Both the position numbers and the translations under genes were made by a program. The notes beneath the pieces are model-generated. The model had not been told where the DNA came from. It was given only the letters and a program-made list of their open reading frames with translations, and did not search any database. Below, in pieces: positions 51,781-62,191 of a DNA stretch of 64,000 bases (the stretch's first letter is position 1; the number at the start of each line of letters is the position of its first letter). Source of the DNA: Tractidigestivibacter scatoligenes (GTDB lineage: Bacteria > Actinomycetota > Coriobacteriia > Coriobacteriales > Atopobiaceae); assembly GCF_001494635.1 (NCBI RefSeq), contig NZ_LOJF01000010.1:1-64000 (forward strand), written 5' to 3'.

Positions 51781-52079
51781 TCTGACCTCCTCGATAGAAA
51801 ACCGTGACGGCTCTGTGCCGCCTCTTACCAATCGTCATTGTGTGTGAGAGGTAGCAATTTGAGATGGGTCTTGGCTCGTGTTTGGCGGTCGTATCTTCTC
51901 GCCGCCAAATAGCACCAAAGGTCGTATGCGGGACCAAAGTAGTAGGTCCGCCCCCCGAAATCCGCCCTCCGGCACGACCTTGGCACTACGGCCAAAATGT
52001 GCCTTTCGCCAATAATCAGGAGATAAACGGGCAGTTTCTACAAGCTGTGATGCTTGCTGTCATGAGAGGAGACAGACAA
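51781..52079. promoter_or_regulatory. Divergent promoter region between decarboxylase and activase
   Basis: 299 bases with no gene. Both ribosome sites lie at its edges. CCAAAATGTGCCTTTCGCCAA (51993-52013) resembles a motif of the G+C hairpin family. I cannot place operators for the nearby PocR-LuxR protein with confidence. Confidence 0.5.
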
Positions 52080-53072
52080 ATGAGGAGGAGTCTTTCCGCG
52101 CCATTGAGCGATAGGGACAGAGAGCTCAAAGGAAGGATCTTCGACATTCAGTCGTACAGCGTCCATGATGGCCCTGGGTGCAGAACGCTCATCTTCATGT
52201 CCGGCTGCCCCTTTCGCTGCAAGTGGTGCTGCAACCCCGAGAGCTTCTACAATCGACAGGGCAAGCTCTACCGAGCCTCAAAGTGCGTGAACCGTGCCGA
52301 CAAGCGCTGCACGCGCTGCCTGGAGGCCTGCCCCTACGGTGCGGTGAGCGACAACTCGCAAGACCCGGACCACCCCATGAAATTTGACTGGGAGAAGTGC
52401 CACGTCTGCACCACGTTTGAGTGCGTGAAGGCCTGCTATGACGATGCCCTGGTCACGATCTCCGAGGAATACACGGTCGAGCAGATCATGCACATCCTCG
52501 AGCGCGACCGCCACTACTGGTCTGGAAATGGTGGCGTGACCTTCTCGGGCGGCGACCCCATGTTCCAGCCCGAGTTCCTTCTTGCCGTGCTGGAGCGCTG
52601 CGACGAGGCCTACATCCACAAGGCCATAGAGACGGAGGCATCTGCCTCGACTGACGTCTACCTCAACGTGATGCGCCACATGGACTTTGCCTTCAACGAC
52701 CTCAAGAGCATGGATACCGAGAAGCACCGCGAGTACACGGGCATGGGCAACGAGCAGGTGCTGCAGAACATTCGGGCCTTTACCAGCTCAAACTGCAGTG
52801 CTCGACTCATCCTGCGTACACCGGTCATCCGGGGCTTCAACGACACCGAGGAGGACTTTGACAAGATTGGTGCGTTCATGAGGGAAGTGGGCTTGAACGA
52901 GCTCAACATCCTGCCGTTCCACCGGCTTGGCGTGAGCAAGTGGGAAGAGCTCTCGATGACGTACGCATTCGCAGACGACAAGCCCACGTCGCCCGAGAAG
53001 CTCGAGAGTCTCCGCAAGGTGGTTCAGGGGCACGGGGTCAAGTGCTACGTGGGAAGCGAGACGCCGTTCTAA
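52080..53072 (+). CDS. hpdA: Glycyl-radical enzyme activating enzyme (HpdA-like radical SAM)
   Basis: 330 residues. Installs the glycyl radical on the decarboxylase using S-adenosylmethionine. Radical-SAM cysteines Cys43-x3-Cys47-x2-Cys50 (GCPFRCKWC), then an insert with two ferredoxin-like clusters (CVNRADKRCTRCLEACPYGA and CHVCTTFECVKAC), as in decarboxylase and B12-independent dehydratase activases. GGVTFSGGDPMFQ is the GGE-like motif. Start ATG (MRRSLS) after GAGAGGAGACAG; an ATG six codons earlier is possible. Divergent from hpdB, unlike the hpdBCA order in C. difficile. Confidence 0.93.
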   Translation: MRRSLSAPLSDRDRELKGRIFDIQSYSVHDGPGCRTLIFMSGCPFRCKWCCNPESFYNRQGKLYRASKCVNRADKRCTRCLEACPYGAVSDNSQDPDHPMKFDWEKCHVCTTFECVKACYDDALVTISEEYTVEQIMHILERDRHYWSGNGGVTFSGGDPMFQPEFLLAVLERCDEAYIHKAIETEASASTDVYLNVMRHMDFAFNDLKSMDTEKHREYTGMGNEQVLQNIRAFTSSNCSARLILRTPVIRGFNDTEEDFDKIGAFMREVGLNELNILPFHRLGVSKWEELSMTYAFADDKPTSPEKLESLRKVVQGHGVKCYVGSETPF

Positions 53073-53123: not shown

Positions 53124-54026
53124 TTAGCCAAAGATGTTGGACATGAAGTCGTCTGCTATAAGGACGCGACGCAGGGCTTCTACCTCGTCGTGGTTCACGG
53201 AGCCATCCGCAGAAATGCGGCTCAGGGCCTCCGAGGGGGTGTAGCCGTCGAGAATCTCCTCGCAGAACATGAGCATGAGGGCGCAGGCGCCATCGGTTGT
53301 GGCGTGGTCAACGTCAAGCGAGAAGCGCTTCCCCTCGTTGCCAAAGACACGGTCAAGCTCCGTACGAGCGGTGGTGCCCTCCCAGAGGTCGCCGAGGTAC
53401 GCAAGGACACCCTCGATGGAGCCATAGCGCGGCACCAGGTCAAGCGTGAGGTTGACCATCTCGTGGACTATTGCCTGAGACTGCTGCTCTAGGTCGACGC
53501 TCTGCGTGAGGACGTCTGTCCAGCGCAGGGCGTCCGACTTTTCCAGCATGCCGTGCGGGCCCTCAATCTTTGTGGGCGGTTCGTCGTTACCAATAATCTG
53601 CCTGTCGGCAACGCGAAGCACCTGATCGAGCGACATGGAGCGCTGCATCATGCGTTTGCCACGCACAAGGAGCATCAACACGTAGTAGAGCCGGTCAAAG
53701 AGAATGGGCTCGAAGGTGAAGATGTTGGCGCCAGAGCGAAAGGCGGCTAGCCGTTCCTCGGGGGAGTCGTGCGTCGAGTAGATAACCGCGGGCTGCTCCA
53801 CAATGTTGTAGTGCTCGCGGAGTCGCCGACATGCCTCGTAGCCGCTCATGTCCTGAAGCTCTACCGAGAAGATCACCACATCGATGCGATACGTGCGGAT
53901 GATGCGGAAGGCCTCCTCGGCACGGTAGCACAGGACCACGTCGCAGCCGTAGGCGGCGAGACCGCGCTTGAAGCGCTCGCGTGCCTTGCCGTCTGAGCAT
54001 ACAAAGAGCAGCTTGGGAGGTCTCAT
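53124..54026 (-). CDS. Protein with degenerate response-regulator receiver domain
   Basis: 300 residues. Residues 1-125 follow the receiver fold (KLLFVCSDGKAR; IDVVIFSVELQDMSGYEACRRLR; GANIFTFEPILFDRL), but the phosphoacceptor Asp is Ser54 and the conserved Lys is replaced in TFEP (Glu106), so it should not be phosphorylated normally. The C-terminal 175 residues are helical with no DNA-binding motif I recognise. The ATG lies four bases after the stop of the PocR-LuxR gene, so both are one transcript. Convergent with hpdA; a role in controlling the decarboxylase module is inferred. Confidence 0.75.
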   Translation of the reverse strand: MRPPKLLFVCSDGKARERFKRGLAAYGCDVVLCYRAEEAFRIIRTYRIDVVIFSVELQDMSGYEACRRLREHYNIVEQPAVIYSTHDSPEERLAAFRSGANIFTFEPILFDRLYYVLMLLVRGKRMMQRSMSLDQVLRVADRQIIGNDEPPTKIEGPHGMLEKSDALRWTDVLTQSVDLEQQSQAIVHEMVNLTLDLVPRYGSIEGVLAYLGDLWEGTTARTELDRVFGNEGKRFSLDVDHATTDGACALMLMFCEEILDGYTPSEALSRISADGSVNHDEVEALRRVLIADDFMSNIFG

Positions 54027-54030
54027 ACTG

Positions 54031-54804
54031 CTACACCACCATAGTCTGGCGGTTGTCCTCATCAAGCGTGTCTGCGTACTCGCAGATAAGCTGGACACGG
54101 TTCTTCACGCCAAGCTTGGCAAGGATGCTGCTCATGTGTGTCTTGACGGTCTTCTCGCTGAGGAAGAGGCGGTCGGCAATCTGGGAGTTGCTTAGGCCAT
54201 CGCATACCAGAACGGCAATCTCGTTCTCACGCGGGGTAAGGACGGGGGAGAGTATGCGCGTGGCGCCTCTGGAATCCGCCGAGGGGTCAAGATGGACGTC
54301 GAGAAGCCGGCAGGTGCACTCGAGCCACGAGGTGGCCTCGCTTAGCTCCTCGTGGGTGATGACGGGAAGGTCGAACTTTGCCTGGAGCTGCTCGGCGTGT
54401 GGCGCGTCATCAAAGACAAAACCGTCGCAGCGCCACAGGGCAACGAGGCGTGTGTTGAAGAAGACAGGTATCGCAAATGAGGTAATGCCAAAGTTGCAGG
54501 TGCGCACCAGTGGGTCAAAGACCCTTCTGTTCTGGAAGTAGCTGGCGACCGCTGCGATGTCGTGTGCTGCGATGCCCGAGCAGTCATGCGCCATCCCAGA
54601 TTGGACAAAGTTGCAAAAGCCCAGCTTGAGCGAGGGGACAAGCAGAGGCTTGCCCTGCGTGTCTATGAGCAGAAGTGGAACGCGATAGTCTCGGACAAAG
54701 CAATCCTGGAAGTCCTGGAGGGCTCCCTTGCCCACCATGGATACCCACCTGTCGGCACTAATCTCTTTGGGCTGGTGGCTGCCACCGCCAACGCTCCTGA
54801 GCAT
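54031..54804 (-). CDS. PocR-domain LuxR-type transcriptional regulator
   Basis: 257 residues. An N-terminal PocR-like sensory domain (ALQDFQDCFVRDYRVPLLLIDTQG, then LGFCNFVQSG, CSGIAAHD, CNFGITSFAIPV), then a LuxR helix-turn-helix (LTPRENEIAVLVCDGLSNSQIADRLFLSEKTVKTHMSSILAKLGVKNR). PocR domains bind small hydrocarbon derivatives, so an aromatic-acid ligand would fit the neighbouring decarboxylase (inference). The ATG nine bases after GGGGGAGG is chosen over a TTG six codons earlier. Confidence 0.88.
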   Translation of the reverse strand: MLRSVGGGSHQPKEISADRWVSMVGKGALQDFQDCFVRDYRVPLLLIDTQGKPLLVPSLKLGFCNFVQSGMAHDCSGIAAHDIAAVASYFQNRRVFDPLVRTCNFGITSFAIPVFFNTRLVALWRCDGFVFDDAPHAEQLQAKFDLPVITHEELSEATSWLECTCRLLDVHLDPSADSRGATRILSPVLTPRENEIAVLVCDGLSNSQIADRLFLSEKTVKTHMSSILAKLGVKNRVQLICEYADTLDEDNRQTMVV

Positions 54805-55191
54805 TGCACAAACCTCCCCCAAGACGGCCGCTTTACACGACGTGCCTGTTTGCTGATGTGTACCCCCTCTACATGTAGGTGGCCCCTACCACCCACGATT
54901 GCGGGCTCTCCCAACTTCCGCACTTTGCACCATTTTGCCCCCGGCGGTTCTGGCTATACGGAATTGTTCGGCAAACGTGCCATTTGCACGCATTCGTGCC
55001 ATACATTCTTGCAGGTAAAGGCTGTTCGCTCATGAGTTTCAGTTATTTTGGTTTTTACGCCAACGGTGCTATGTGGGCGAGCCTGTTGCCCACGCTCTGC
55101 GGCAGACGCTACCAGAAGGTCTCCCGCCACACATTCGCGCCTGAATCCGTGGCCTGGCCTCTCTGCACCATTGACGAGAAGGACTTCACGC

Positions 55192-58054: not shown

Positions 58055-60001
58055 ATGTTCGAGGCGCTTGCAAGCTTCTTCTCGCTTATCGTGCAGCCGG
58101 CCTATGACCTTACCGGCAGTTGGTGGGCGGCAATCTTTCTCTTCACCCTGTTCTCCAAGGTCATCCTTATGCCCCTCTCGGTGTGGTGTCAGAAGAACAG
58201 CATCGTGATGGTCCAGCTCATGCCCGAGCTCTTCCGCATCAAGTGCCGCTACTACGGCGACCGCGAGACCATCGAGGAAAAGCAGAACGAGCTCTATCAC
58301 GAGAAGCACTACCATGCGCTGCTCTCGCTCATCCCCCTGGCCATCCAGGTGATCATCCTCTTTGGCCTGGTGGACGTCATCCACTCCATCACAGACTCCG
58401 GCGCGCCCGGCACCGAGTTCCTGGGGCTGGTGCCCATCGAGAGCGGTGGTGCATCGCTCATCATGCCGCTTCTTGCCGGACTCTCCGCCGTGATCATGGG
58501 CTGGGCCTCCAACCACATCAACCCCCTCCAGCGTGAGCAGTCCCGCGCCGAGAAGAACATGACCAACGGCCTCTCCATCGCGCTTTCGCTCTTCCTGGGC
58601 TTCTACGTGGTGTGCGGCATGGCGTTCTACTGGGTGTGCTCCAACCTGCTCTCTATTGCGGTGCAGGCGCTGTGCAACGTGATCGTGAAGCCGCGCGACT
58701 ACATCGACTATGAGGACCTCAACAAGGCTCGTGACGAGTTCAACGCCATCGAGGAGGCCACCAAGGGCGACCGCAAGTGGTACCAGCCAGATCCGCTGGC
58801 CCGTCGCGCCAAGGCAGACTACAAGCGCTTCTTCAAGGTGGACGGCAAGCACCTGGTGTTCTACTCGGAGAGTTCGGGCTTCTACAAGTACTTCCAGGGC
58901 GCCATCGAGTGGCTGCTTAACAACTCCGACGTGCGCATCCACTACCTCACAAGCGATCCCGACGACCAGGTCTTTGACATCGCCAAGCGAGAGCCGCGCC
59001 TCATCCCGTACTTCCTTGACCAGAAGCGACTCATCACGCTCATGATGAAGATGGATGCGGACGTGGTGGTGAGCTCGCTTGGCGCGCTCGACGTGTACTA
59101 CATCAAGCGCTCCTACGTGCGCAAGGACATCGAGTACATCTACATGTGCCACCATATGACCTCAATGCACCTTACCTCGACCAAAGAGGAGTACGACAAC
59201 TTCGACACAGTCATGTGCGTGGGGCCGCACCAGCGTCGCGAGCTTCGACGCATGGAGGAGGTCTATCACACACCAAGGAAGAAGCTCCCCAAGATTGGCT
59301 ACGACCTTCTCGACCGCGAGATTGCCGACTACGAGGCCATGCCCAAGGTGGCACACGAGAAGCCCGTCATTCTCATTGCCCCGTCCTGGAACCAGGACAA
59401 CATCCTCGATACCTGCATTGATGACATGCTGGGAAGGCTTCTGGGCCATGGGTACCGCGTGATTGTTCGTCCGCACCCGGAGTATGTGAAGCGCTACCGT
59501 CCGCGCTGGGATGCGCTGGTCGAGCGCTATGCCAAGGTGCCCAAGGACGAGCTGGTCTTTGAGGGCGACTTCTCGGGCCACTCCTCCATCCTTGAGTCCG
59601 ACGTCTTGGTTACCGACTGGTCCTCCATCGCGGAGGAGTTCTCGTTCACCACGCTCAAGCCATCGCTCTTCATCGACACGCCAATGAAGGTCACGAACCC
59701 AGACTGGGAGCAGGTTGGGATAGAACCCACCGACATTAGCCTGCGCAACCAGATTGGCCGCTCGCTCGACCCGGCGGATCTCTCTGAGCTCGAGGGCGTC
59801 ATTGATGACATGGTTTCGAACCCCGCGTCTTGGCATGACAGGATTCGCCAAATTCGCGATAGCTTCATCTACAACCTTGGCCACGGCGGCGAGGCTGCGG
59901 GCGAGTACATCCTGAGGGAGGTTCTCGCCAAGCAGGAGGGTAAGGACATTACGGCTGCCGGTGCTATGGCAGAGAATGGCGGTGTGCGTGATGGTCGCTA
60001 G
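58055..60001 (+). CDS. YidC/Oxa1-like membrane domain fused to CDP-glycerol glycerophosphotransferase
   Basis: 648 residues. Residues 1-215 have the YidC plan: helix at 22-44 (IFLFTLFSKVILMPLS, with Lys35 where YidC usually has the groove Arg), a charged helical hairpin (KCRYYGDRETIEEKQNELYHE), then helices at about 88-108, 130-150 and 172-205. From about 265 on it is a TagF/TagB-type glycerophosphotransferase: HLVFYSESSGFYKYFQ, IAPSWNQDN, VRPHPEY and the signature LVTDWSSIAEEF. It would transfer glycerol phosphate to a membrane-bound acceptor, building a teichoic-acid-like polymer. The YidC part may insert or guide the acceptor; inferred. The next gene overlaps its end. Confidence 0.87.
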   Translation: MFEALASFFSLIVQPAYDLTGSWWAAIFLFTLFSKVILMPLSVWCQKNSIVMVQLMPELFRIKCRYYGDRETIEEKQNELYHEKHYHALLSLIPLAIQVIILFGLVDVIHSITDSGAPGTEFLGLVPIESGGASLIMPLLAGLSAVIMGWASNHINPLQREQSRAEKNMTNGLSIALSLFLGFYVVCGMAFYWVCSNLLSIAVQALCNVIVKPRDYIDYEDLNKARDEFNAIEEATKGDRKWYQPDPLARRAKADYKRFFKVDGKHLVFYSESSGFYKYFQGAIEWLLNNSDVRIHYLTSDPDDQVFDIAKREPRLIPYFLDQKRLITLMMKMDADVVVSSLGALDVYYIKRSYVRKDIEYIYMCHHMTSMHLTSTKEEYDNFDTVMCVGPHQRRELRRMEEVYHTPRKKLPKIGYDLLDREIADYEAMPKVAHEKPVILIAPSWNQDNILDTCIDDMLGRLLGHGYRVIVRPHPEYVKRYRPRWDALVERYAKVPKDELVFEGDFSGHSSILESDVLVTDWSSIAEEFSFTTLKPSLFIDTPMKVTNPDWEQVGIEPTDISLRNQIGRSLDPADLSELEGVIDDMVSNPASWHDRIRQIRDSFIYNLGHGGEAAGEYILREVLAKQEGKDITAAGAMAENGGVRDGR

Positions 60002-62126
60002 GCATGCGTGTGATGGACGCGTTGCGCGTTGCTTCTCGAGGGGAGTCATCGTTGTCTGGGATGTCTTGAGCATTTCTGCGATAAGCGCCTGCCTGCTCAC
60101 GGCCATGGCGACGCCGGCGCTTGCCTACGTGGACCCCTCGGTCATGACTTATACGATTCAAGCGCTGGCCGCGGTTGCTGTTGCGCTCTCCGCGGTCCTG
60201 GGCGTGGCCTTCAGGCGCACCCGCAAGGCGCTCATGAGGATCCTGCACATTGATGAGGGCGCCAAGCGCGTGGCGGAGCCGGCCGTATCGCGCATCGACC
60301 CAGCCGGGAAGCCCGCGGCAGACGCGTCGGCACGCGAGGATCTTGCCGCCATGGGCGGGTCCGCACTTGGCGGCTCCAAGCGCCGCACGACCAGTTTGCC
60401 GTGGGGGCGTCGCCTTGTGCTTGCGCTTCTCGCCTGCGCGCTTCTCGTCCTTACGGTGCTCGTGGTGGCGCCGCTTGAGCTTGTTGCCGGCAGCTCCGAC
60501 AGCCTCCTTTTTGGCATAAAGCAAGTATGGCAGGTTGTGGTGGTGGCGGGTCTCGTCGTTTCCGTTGTTTCCGGCCTTGCCATTTCGGCAGTTCGTGGGC
60601 GCGCCTTTGACGTGGTTGTTGCCATAGTCGTGGCGTTTGGCGTGGGCGCCTACGTGCAGGTGCTCTTTATGAACTCGAGCCTGCCAGTTGCCGATGGCAA
60701 CCTTGTAGACTGGACCCAGTACAACAAAATCACTGCTATCAGCCTGCTCGTGTGGGCAACCATTCTTGTTGCATTTTTGGTGTTTGCGGTCAAGCGTCCA
60801 CGTATCGAGAGGGCTGTTTCCGCAGTGTTGAGCGTTGCCCTCATCATTGTGCAGGTGACTGGCGTCGTGGGCATCGTGACCAAGGCGGCATCCGAGCCAG
60901 AGTCCATCACCATTACCGAGAAAGGCCTCTTTGACGTCTCTGGCAAGAAGAACGTGGTGTGCTTTGTGCTGGACATGACCGACACCGCGGATGCCAAGCA
61001 AGCCTATGCCGACAACCCCAACATGCTTGACGGTTTGGATGGCTTTACCTGGTACCAGAACAGCACGGGGTCGATGATTCCCACGCGCTATGGCATTCCG
61101 TCTCTGCTCACGGGCGCGCGGCCGCAGAAGGGCGAGGATGCGGCGGATTTTCTCTCGTCCATGTACACAAACAGCCACTTCTTGGATGATGTGGCGGCTC
61201 AGGGCTACACCACGGACATCTACTCTGACTCTGCGGATTGGATCGATGGCTGGAGTGAGTACCTGGGACAGCATGCTGAGAACTTCGAGAGTACCTCGGA
61301 CGTTGCCAAAGGTGCCCTTGATCGGCAAGGTACGCTTCGCATTCTGTACCAGTGCGCGCTTTATCGCGACATGCCGTGGATTGCCAAGCCATTCTTCTGG
61401 TTCTACACGGACCAGATCAATCAGGGCATGACCGCAAGTACGAGCGGGACATCTCCTGACCTGACGCCCTATATCATGGATGACCCTGCCTACTACCAGG
61501 CGCTCAAGGAGAATGGCCTTTCCATCAACGACGAGGATGCCTCGTTCCGCTTCATTCACCTTGTTGGTACCCACTGGCCCTATACCATGGATGCCGACGG
61601 CAACAAGGTTGCGGAGTCTAGCGACTGGGAGTCGCAGATGGTTGGTGCCTTCAAGATCGTGCGCACCTACCTTGACGAACTCAAGCGTTTGGGCTTGTAT
61701 GACAGCACAACGGTGATTATTACAGCAGACCATGGTGTGTGGTATCTCACACCAGACGTGTTGGACGGCGTTTCGACGCCAATCATCTTTGTGAAGCCTG
61801 CACAGTCTGCCGAGGCGGACACCGTGCCGTGCCAGATTTCCCAACAGCCAGTGAGCCACTACGATCTTCAGGCAACCATGCTTAAGGGTATGGGTGCCTC
61901 GCAGGATGTGCTTAATCACTACGGCGAGTACAACCAGGCAATTGAGGATCGTAGGGACCCTGCAGATCGCCTGCGCTATTACCTCATGACGACGAGTAAC
62001 GGCAAGTTCGACACCGGTTGGCGTGAGTACCAGATATCCGGCGACTCTCAGGACTTCGCGAACTGGCACCTCGACGGGAACGATTGGACTATCACAGACG
62101 ATGACGCCAAGCGCATCTGGCACTAA
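59991..62126 (+). CDS. LtaS-like membrane sulfatase/phosphoglycerol transferase-type protein
   Basis: 711 residues. Signal/anchor at about 20-45, further helices at about 50-75, 135-155, 165-195, 205-225, 245-270 and 275-300, then a large external alkaline-phosphatase-superfamily domain. Metal and nucleophile motifs: VVCFVLDMTDT (Asp), NSTGSMIPTRYGIPSLLTG (Thr/Ser nucleophile region) and VIITADHGVW (Asp-His). Similar enzymes add or remove phosphoglycerol or phosphoethanolamine on surface polymers. The ATG at 59991 overlaps the upstream gene by 11 bases; a TTG at 60066 is an alternative start, so the N-terminus is uncertain. Coupling with the TagF-like fusion suggests a shared polymer. Confidence 0.85.
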   Translation: MVARHACDGRVARCFSRGVIVVWDVLSISAISACLLTAMATPALAYVDPSVMTYTIQALAAVAVALSAVLGVAFRRTRKALMRILHIDEGAKRVAEPAVSRIDPAGKPAADASAREDLAAMGGSALGGSKRRTTSLPWGRRLVLALLACALLVLTVLVVAPLELVAGSSDSLLFGIKQVWQVVVVAGLVVSVVSGLAISAVRGRAFDVVVAIVVAFGVGAYVQVLFMNSSLPVADGNLVDWTQYNKITAISLLVWATILVAFLVFAVKRPRIERAVSAVLSVALIIVQVTGVVGIVTKAASEPESITITEKGLFDVSGKKNVVCFVLDMTDTADAKQAYADNPNMLDGLDGFTWYQNSTGSMIPTRYGIPSLLTGARPQKGEDAADFLSSMYTNSHFLDDVAAQGYTTDIYSDSADWIDGWSEYLGQHAENFESTSDVAKGALDRQGTLRILYQCALYRDMPWIAKPFFWFYTDQINQGMTASTSGTSPDLTPYIMDDPAYYQALKENGLSINDEDASFRFIHLVGTHWPYTMDADGNKVAESSDWESQMVGAFKIVRTYLDELKRLGLYDSTTVIITADHGVWYLTPDVLDGVSTPIIFVKPAQSAEADTVPCQISQQPVSHYDLQATMLKGMGASQDVLNHYGEYNQAIEDRRDPADRLRYYLMTTSNGKFDTGWREYQISGDSQDFANWHLDGNDWTITDDDAKRIWH

Positions 62127-62160: not shown

Positions 62161-62191
62161 GGCGCCACCGCTCATCTTGGGCGGTGGCGCC
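62161..62191 (+). terminator. Terminator after the sulfatase gene
   Basis: GGCGCCACCGC/GCGGTGGCGCC, 11-bp perfect stem, followed by CTTGCTTTT. Confidence 0.88.

Follow-up and report, generated by a model that had tools for sequence, protein, structure and literature searches.

A YidC-fold membrane domain fused to a TagF-fold transferase and linked to a sulfatase-fold enzyme: a candidate head-group transfer system

We analyzed a 64,000-nucleotide stretch of the Tractidigestivibacter scatoligenes genome (contig NZ_LOJF01000010.1, positions 1 to 64,000; hereafter the window), in which a single 648-residue protein combines an N-terminal YidC-fold membrane core with a C-terminal TagF-fold catalytic domain. 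Directly downstream lies a gene for a membrane-anchored enzyme of the alkaline-phosphatase (AP) fold, which also contains the sulfatases; the nucleophile position of this enzyme is an invariant Thr. The YidC, transferase, and sulfatase modules are genetically linked throughout, whether as an operon, as a three-way fusion, or as a YidC–sulfatase fusion. We put at roughly even odds the interpretation that they form a membrane-integrated CDP-head-group transferase that hands its product to an extracytoplasmic phosphotransferase, so that the cell surface is decorated with choline-like or phosphonate groups. Taken singly, the parts of this system all fall into known families. We found no earlier description of the YidC–TagF fusion, its shuffled forms, or its link to lic or phosphonate operons, and literature searches for such a fusion returned nothing relevant among open-licence papers.

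Architecture of the fusion protein and its partner

The two genes and their parts, all on the forward strand, are as follows.

58055 to 60001 (+): uninterrupted open reading frame (ORF) of 648 amino acids (aa), the fusion
58055 to 58699 (+): YidC/Oxa1-like five-helix membrane domain, residues 1–215 (PF02096, TIGR03592, AlphaFold2 (AF2) model with Foldseek, conservation), with a cytosolic C1 helical hairpin at residues ~39–83, Lys35 at the groove position, and the cytosolic motif N-x-INPLQREQS-x-EKN
58700 to 58842 (+): linker helices and charged linker between the domains, residues ~216–262 (AF2 secondary structure)
58769 to 59947 (+): TagF-type GT-B transferase domain, residues ~239–631 (PF04464, VIA-align, motif residues), with H366, R472-P-H474-P-E, and T520-D-W-S-S524
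59961 to 62126 (+): sulfatase/AP-fold membrane transferase, the partner (PF00884, E 2.7e-6; AF2, conservation, hydrophobic segments)
62161 to 62191 (+): strong terminator-like hairpin closing the two-gene operon (14-pair stem, T-rich tail)

The first half of the fusion matches the Pfam family 60KD_IMP (PF02096) over residues 23–208 (E 2.6e-27; 96.2 bits against a cut-off of 35), and its TIGR03592 score of 83.5 bits is slightly below the cut-off of 84.3. Bacterial YidC and mitochondrial OXA1L matched only this half in a sequence search of the PDB. The second half matches Glyphos_transf (PF04464) over residues 374–538 (E 3e-8; 33.4 bits against a cut-off of 22.1) and contains both RPHPEY and TDWSS; H366, H474, and D521-W522-S523 are invariant in an alignment of relatives.

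An AF2 model of the fusion, built with 35 relatives, has a mean predicted local distance difference test score (pLDDT) of 86. Foldseek matched this model to TagF (3l7l, E 5e-10) and to YidC (3wo7, E 4e-6, root-mean-square deviation 3.7 over 218 columns), and also paired the YidC half with 6al2. VIA-align ranks TagF top (3l7k, Z 21.1 over residues 238–631); YidC is absent from its list because the GT-B domain fills it, which has no bearing against the YidC fold found by Foldseek. Linker helices span residues 219–236 and 247–261, and the block 231–240 has a low pLDDT (63). The first-pass annotation, which was made from the letters of the window, had recognized both halves, and its comparison of residues 1–215 with YidC is borne out by the fold. 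The sole PF04464 gene and the sole PF00884 gene of the genome both lie in this operon.

The YidC half resembles the YidC/Oxa1/Alb3 insertases (Bacillus halodurans YidC2, 3wo7; E. coli YidC) in its five-helix fold, C1 hairpin, and positive groove residue. It differs from them in the attached GT-B transferase, a motif of its own, a clade of its own, and a groove Lys in place of Arg. This substitution, already pointed out in the first-pass annotation, is robust: K35 aligns with R366 of E. coli YidC (position counted in the alignment) and is invariant in 40 fusions and in 7/7 Clostridial fusions checked. Arg occupies the position in 27 of 28 housekeeping YidCs (column at least 95% Arg); in the 28th, from genome G086, the pattern used for the count matched at another site. 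The conserved groove arginine is therefore absent from the fusions of both phyla, where Lys is invariant and the positive charge is kept. The cytosolic motif, in full N-x-INPLQREQS-x-EKN-x-TNG, is a conserved feature of the fusions that housekeeping YidC does not share.

A housekeeping YidC is encoded by a separate gene of the same genome (G000:C1:140445-141029), and the fused YidC half is only ~21% identical to it. Over 351 genome pairs with both genes, mean identity is 62% for the fused YidC half, 55% for the transferase half, and 52% for housekeeping YidC. Restricting the comparison to shared core columns gives 59% for the fused YidC half versus 54% for housekeeping YidC, and leaving out two distant genomes gives 64% versus 55%; conservation is higher in the fused half in 68% of pairs (79% with those two genomes left out). 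In a tree whose housekeeping YidCs are from Coriobacteriia only, the fused domains of both phyla group together in a single clade that excludes the housekeeping proteins.

The partner contains, in ORF numbering, a YVDPSVMTYTIQ membrane module at approximately residues 56–110, more membrane helices up to approximately residue 306, and a catalytic domain from approximately residue 328 that is probably extracytoplasmic. Its start is probably an ATG/GTG at 59976–59991 or a TTG at 60066. The annotation had described an overlapping gene for a multi-span sulfatase-type transferase. The fold and the Thr at the nucleophile position agree with that description; the overlap depends on the start codon used, as it arises with an in-frame GTG/ATG start in 59961–59991 and disappears with TTG 60066. 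In 41 relatives, D310, T347, H505, H510, D562, and H563 (alignment A2 numbering) are invariant; adding 28 gives the numbering of the ORF from 59961 (D338, T375, H533, H538, D590, and H591). In this superfamily, true sulfatases have Cys or Ser at the nucleophile position, and Thr points to phosphotransfer or phosphodiester cleavage.

The AF2 model of the partner (pLDDT 86.8) matches the folds of PbgA/YejM, choline sulfatase, sulfamidase, phosphonate monoester hydrolases, and LtaS. Against the NCBIfam LtaS model the partner scores 14.3 bits, compared with a cut-off of 970, so the enzyme is LtaS-like in fold, as first annotated, but is not an LtaS. It shares with LtaS/LtaP, PbgA/YejM, and related enzymes the traits of a membrane AP-fold phosphotransferase, namely membrane helices, a presumably extracytoplasmic AP-fold domain, the Thr nucleophile position, and D-H metal ligands. 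It differs from them in its N-terminal YVDPS-TY-IQ module and in being fused or operonic with YidC–TagF. Its first metal ligand is Asp, where LtaS has Glu.

In several relatives the sulfatase-like gene is present as two or three tandem copies. Such copies stand behind the fusion in loci L065, L066, L060, and L051, and some are just 36–48% identical to the window copy, perhaps suggesting different acceptors. The scan that located the terminator-like hairpin returned 6 sites versus 3.4 expected, and the weaker sites may be chance.

Distribution and rearrangement of the three modules

We searched for the transferase half in 298 genomes of the class, counting matches with E < 1e-50 as close relatives. 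These occur in 50 of the 298 genomes (hereafter carriers); the remaining hits are weak and come from standalone transferases or fragments. Among 40 loci read with flanking DNA, 39 encode the YidC–transferase fusion, and the remaining one (L074) had been chosen for its standalone transferase. A scan of named bacterial genomes returned 353 relatives. The best 80 of these include Olsenella, Atopobium, Lancefieldella, Tractidigestivibacter, Eggerthella, Gordonibacter, Adlercreutzia, and Slackia, together with Clostridia (Oscillospiraceae, Lachnospiraceae, Eubacterium, and Anaerotruncus) that are 44–48% identical over near full length. The fusion is thus a real single protein, with an uninterrupted ORF and the same architecture in independent genomes. 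As a separate observation, the fusion ORF in L114 (a Phoenicibacter congonensis metagenome-assembled genome) and the partner ORF in L057 are interrupted, by sequencing error or decay.

The three modules are also joined in other ways. YidC, transferase, and sulfatase form one ORF of 1373–1430 aa in G056/G044, G182, G156, G238, and G268, and such three-way fusions occur in at least five genera. In an alternative architecture, the YidC domain is fused straight to the sulfatase in G182 (L208:8443-11934 (-), 1164 aa) and G221 (L074:5520-8453 (+), 978 aa); in both loci a separate TagF-like gene of ~420–450 aa adjoins this fusion. The YVDPS-TY-IQ module, which is the N-terminus of the partner in Coriobacteriia, is a free protein in Clostridia: a small YVDPS-TY-IQ (YIDPS-TY-IQ) membrane protein, most often of 77–141 aa by ORF, is present in 17 of 24 Clostridial loci and usually adjoins the fusion. 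Loci with such small proteins near the fusion include L144, L145, L150, and L151–L154. The various ways in which the modules are joined or split indicate a joint function of all three, and the three-way and YidC–sulfatase fusions make YidC the shared core.

Candidate donors for the transferase

In Atopobium fossor and A. minutum genomes (L043, L044), genes for a LicC–LicA fusion (LicCA), LicB, the YidC–transferase fusion, and the sulfatase-like enzyme lie together on one strand, and similar lic gene sets occur in L045, L052, and L058. Lic genes flank the fusion in 15 of 39 Coriobacteriia loci, and 12 of these have lic A/B/C on the same strand. The LicC–LicA fusion and the LicB permease are the points of likeness to the lic pathway of phosphocholine decoration (LicA, LicB, LicC, LicD). 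The operons of L043, L044, and L045 differ from this pathway in that no LicD was seen in them, and the YidC–TagF protein occupies that place.

The flanks of several Clostridial loci contain PepM fused to a cytidylyltransferase (CTP_transf) domain, a Ppd-like thiamine pyrophosphate enzyme, an iron-containing alcohol dehydrogenase, and a LicC/PntC-like gene. These loci thereby resemble phosphonate tailoring clusters (PepM, Ppd, PntC, Fom1-type; PMC6697681). That paper provides precedents in Fom1, for CMP-2-hydroxyethylphosphonate, and PntC, for CMP-2-aminoethylphosphonate, and names LicD-like phosphotransferases and glycosyltransferases in such clusters; a YidC–TagF protein did not come up in term searches of it. 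Beside the fusion at L151:1-1770 and L154:2104-3939, a LicC-like cytidylyltransferase domain is fused to a class I/II aminotransferase-like domain, the product of which may be CDP-ethanolamine or CMP-aminoethylphosphonate. From gene content, what these operons have in common would best be read as a small head group activated by CDP or CMP rather than glycerol phosphate.

The genome of the window itself gave no match in a TIGR01518 search for TagD and contains only two CTP_transf_like genes, presumably NadD and CoaD. Because a PepM search of this genome also gave no match, phosphonate donors are proposed for relatives only. Two full winged-helix–LicC–LicA-like proteins with NTP-transferase and choline-kinase domains (Pfam) are encoded at the following positions.

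G000:C1:267161-268927: LicC–LicA fusion (L212)
G000:C9:396342-398003: LicC–LicA fusion (L211)

Their N-terminal region is winged-helix-like, with PF13412 among the Pfam models that scored in the C9 copy, and the enzyme may therefore double as a regulator. The genome further has a LicC-like gene, a kinase-like gene, an EamA-type (LicB-like) permease gene adjoining one LicCA, and LicD. A simple pattern search for choline-binding repeats found none in the window and the fetched loci, and they may occur elsewhere.

Comparisons of carriers with the other genomes of the class, all of them confounded by phylogeny, gave strong LicCA matches in 47/50 carriers versus 56/248 others (p 3e-22) and PepM in 6/50 versus 5/248 (p 0.004). 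TagD was not enriched (4/50 versus 31/248, Fisher p 0.47).

These counts bear on the proposal in the first-pass annotation of a membrane-integrated glycerol-phosphate polymer machine, in which the TagF-like half would polymerize glycerol phosphate from CDP-glycerol on a membrane acceptor and the LtaS-like enzyme would extend or transfer the chain outside. The fusion shares with the TagF/TarL CDP-alditol phosphotransferases (PF04464; 3l7l, 8va1) the GT-B fold, the conserved His, and the RPHP and TD(W/F)SS motifs. TagF and TarL are its nearest solved structures, it has kept the TagF catalytic motifs, the partner matches LtaS among other folds, and four carriers do have TagD. However, TagF is peripheral and the fusion is tied to a polytopic domain; the conserved His sits in HHMTS, where TagF has an HG-type motif. 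The operons contain lic or phosphonate genes instead, and the partner falls far under the LtaS family model. With no CDP-glycerol supply gene detected in its own genome and no association of TagD with carriers, glycerol phosphate as the unit appears to be a weak reading, and we consider such a machine rather unlikely. The membrane-integrated machine and its coupling to an enzyme of LtaS-like fold are the parts of the original proposal that we retain.

A proposed head-group pathway and its alternatives

In the head-group pathway that we propose, the TagF-like domain would face the cytosol, because it lies downstream of the last YidC helix, and would use CDP-choline or a similar CDP-aminoalcohol made by LicC/LicA. 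In some relatives, the donor would be a CMP-phosphonate (2-hydroxyethyl- or 2-aminoethyl-phosphonate) from PntC/Fom1-type enzymes. The YidC-like core would hold a membrane acceptor (a lipid or a lipid-linked glycan) onto which the phospho- or phosphono-head group is moved; with its positive groove, the core would present this acceptor and allow the modified head group across the bilayer. Outside, the sulfatase-fold enzyme, docked by its YVDPS-TY-IQ helix, would pass the head group via a phospho-Thr intermediate onto a surface polymer. The system would thereby replace LicD and a dedicated flippase in lic-type operons.

Insertases including YidC scramble lipids in simulation and when reconstituted in vitro (PMC10491306), which makes a scramblase role of the fused YidC possible but provides no evidence for the fused YidC itself. 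A more tentative possibility is that the YidC/Oxa1 fold was recruited from protein insertion into a pathway for head-group lipids or polymers, where it would form the flippase or scramblase core and connect the cytosolic CDP-head-group transferase with the extracytoplasmic phosphotransferase in a single machine.

Several points, in addition to the phylogenetic confounding of the carrier comparisons, weigh against this pathway. A lipid-scrambling role for the fused YidC domain would be an extrapolation by analogy with other insertases, and the acceptor, the translocation, and the order of steps are a proposal. In the genome of the window, LicCA and LicB lie at other loci and not beside the fusion operon. 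Three carriers (G092, G098, and G259) have no strong LicCA, TagD, or PepM match. LicCA is also present in many fusion-free genomes, where LicD probably uses its product, so co-occurrence is not proof.

The YidC half could instead be a dedicated insertase or assembly chaperone that inserts and then holds the short YVDPS-TY-IQ helix, so that transferase and extracellular enzyme form one complex. Short membrane proteins of this sort are typical YidC substrates, and the fusion has retained both the C1 hairpin and the YidC fold; the small YIDPS-TY-IQ protein encoded near most Clostridial fusions would fit such a function. The three-way fusions, however, need no separate insertion factor for the partner, and the genome already has a housekeeping YidC. 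We regard this explanation as doubtful.

TagF/TarL enzymes work at the membrane surface, and the YidC half could also serve as a membrane anchor only, which would be useful to a normally peripheral enzyme. Yet it shows stronger conservation than both the catalytic half and the essential YidC, and its groove position is an invariant Lys; these features make a mere anchor unlikely. A related YidC domain is, in addition, fused to a sulfatase-like enzyme, a kind of enzyme with membrane helices of its own. Judged from these sequence comparisons, we give an anchor-only role little chance. An assembly or frame error joining two genes can be rejected with near certainty, as dozens of independent assemblies from two phyla have the same architecture.

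Little is known of how phosphocholine, phosphonate, and other head groups arrive at the cell surface in Coriobacteriia and Clostridia of the gut and mouth. A conserved protein that links an insertase fold to transferases on both sides of the membrane would offer a natural system in which to ask whether Oxa1-superfamily folds move lipids physiologically, and phosphonate clusters would gain a candidate for their transfer step.

Upstream of the operon, the window contains genes that we describe from their translations alone and that are apparently unrelated to the fusion. These are a radical S-adenosylmethionine activating-enzyme-like gene (51864-53072) and two regulator-like ORFs, receiver-like and LuxR-type (53124-54822).

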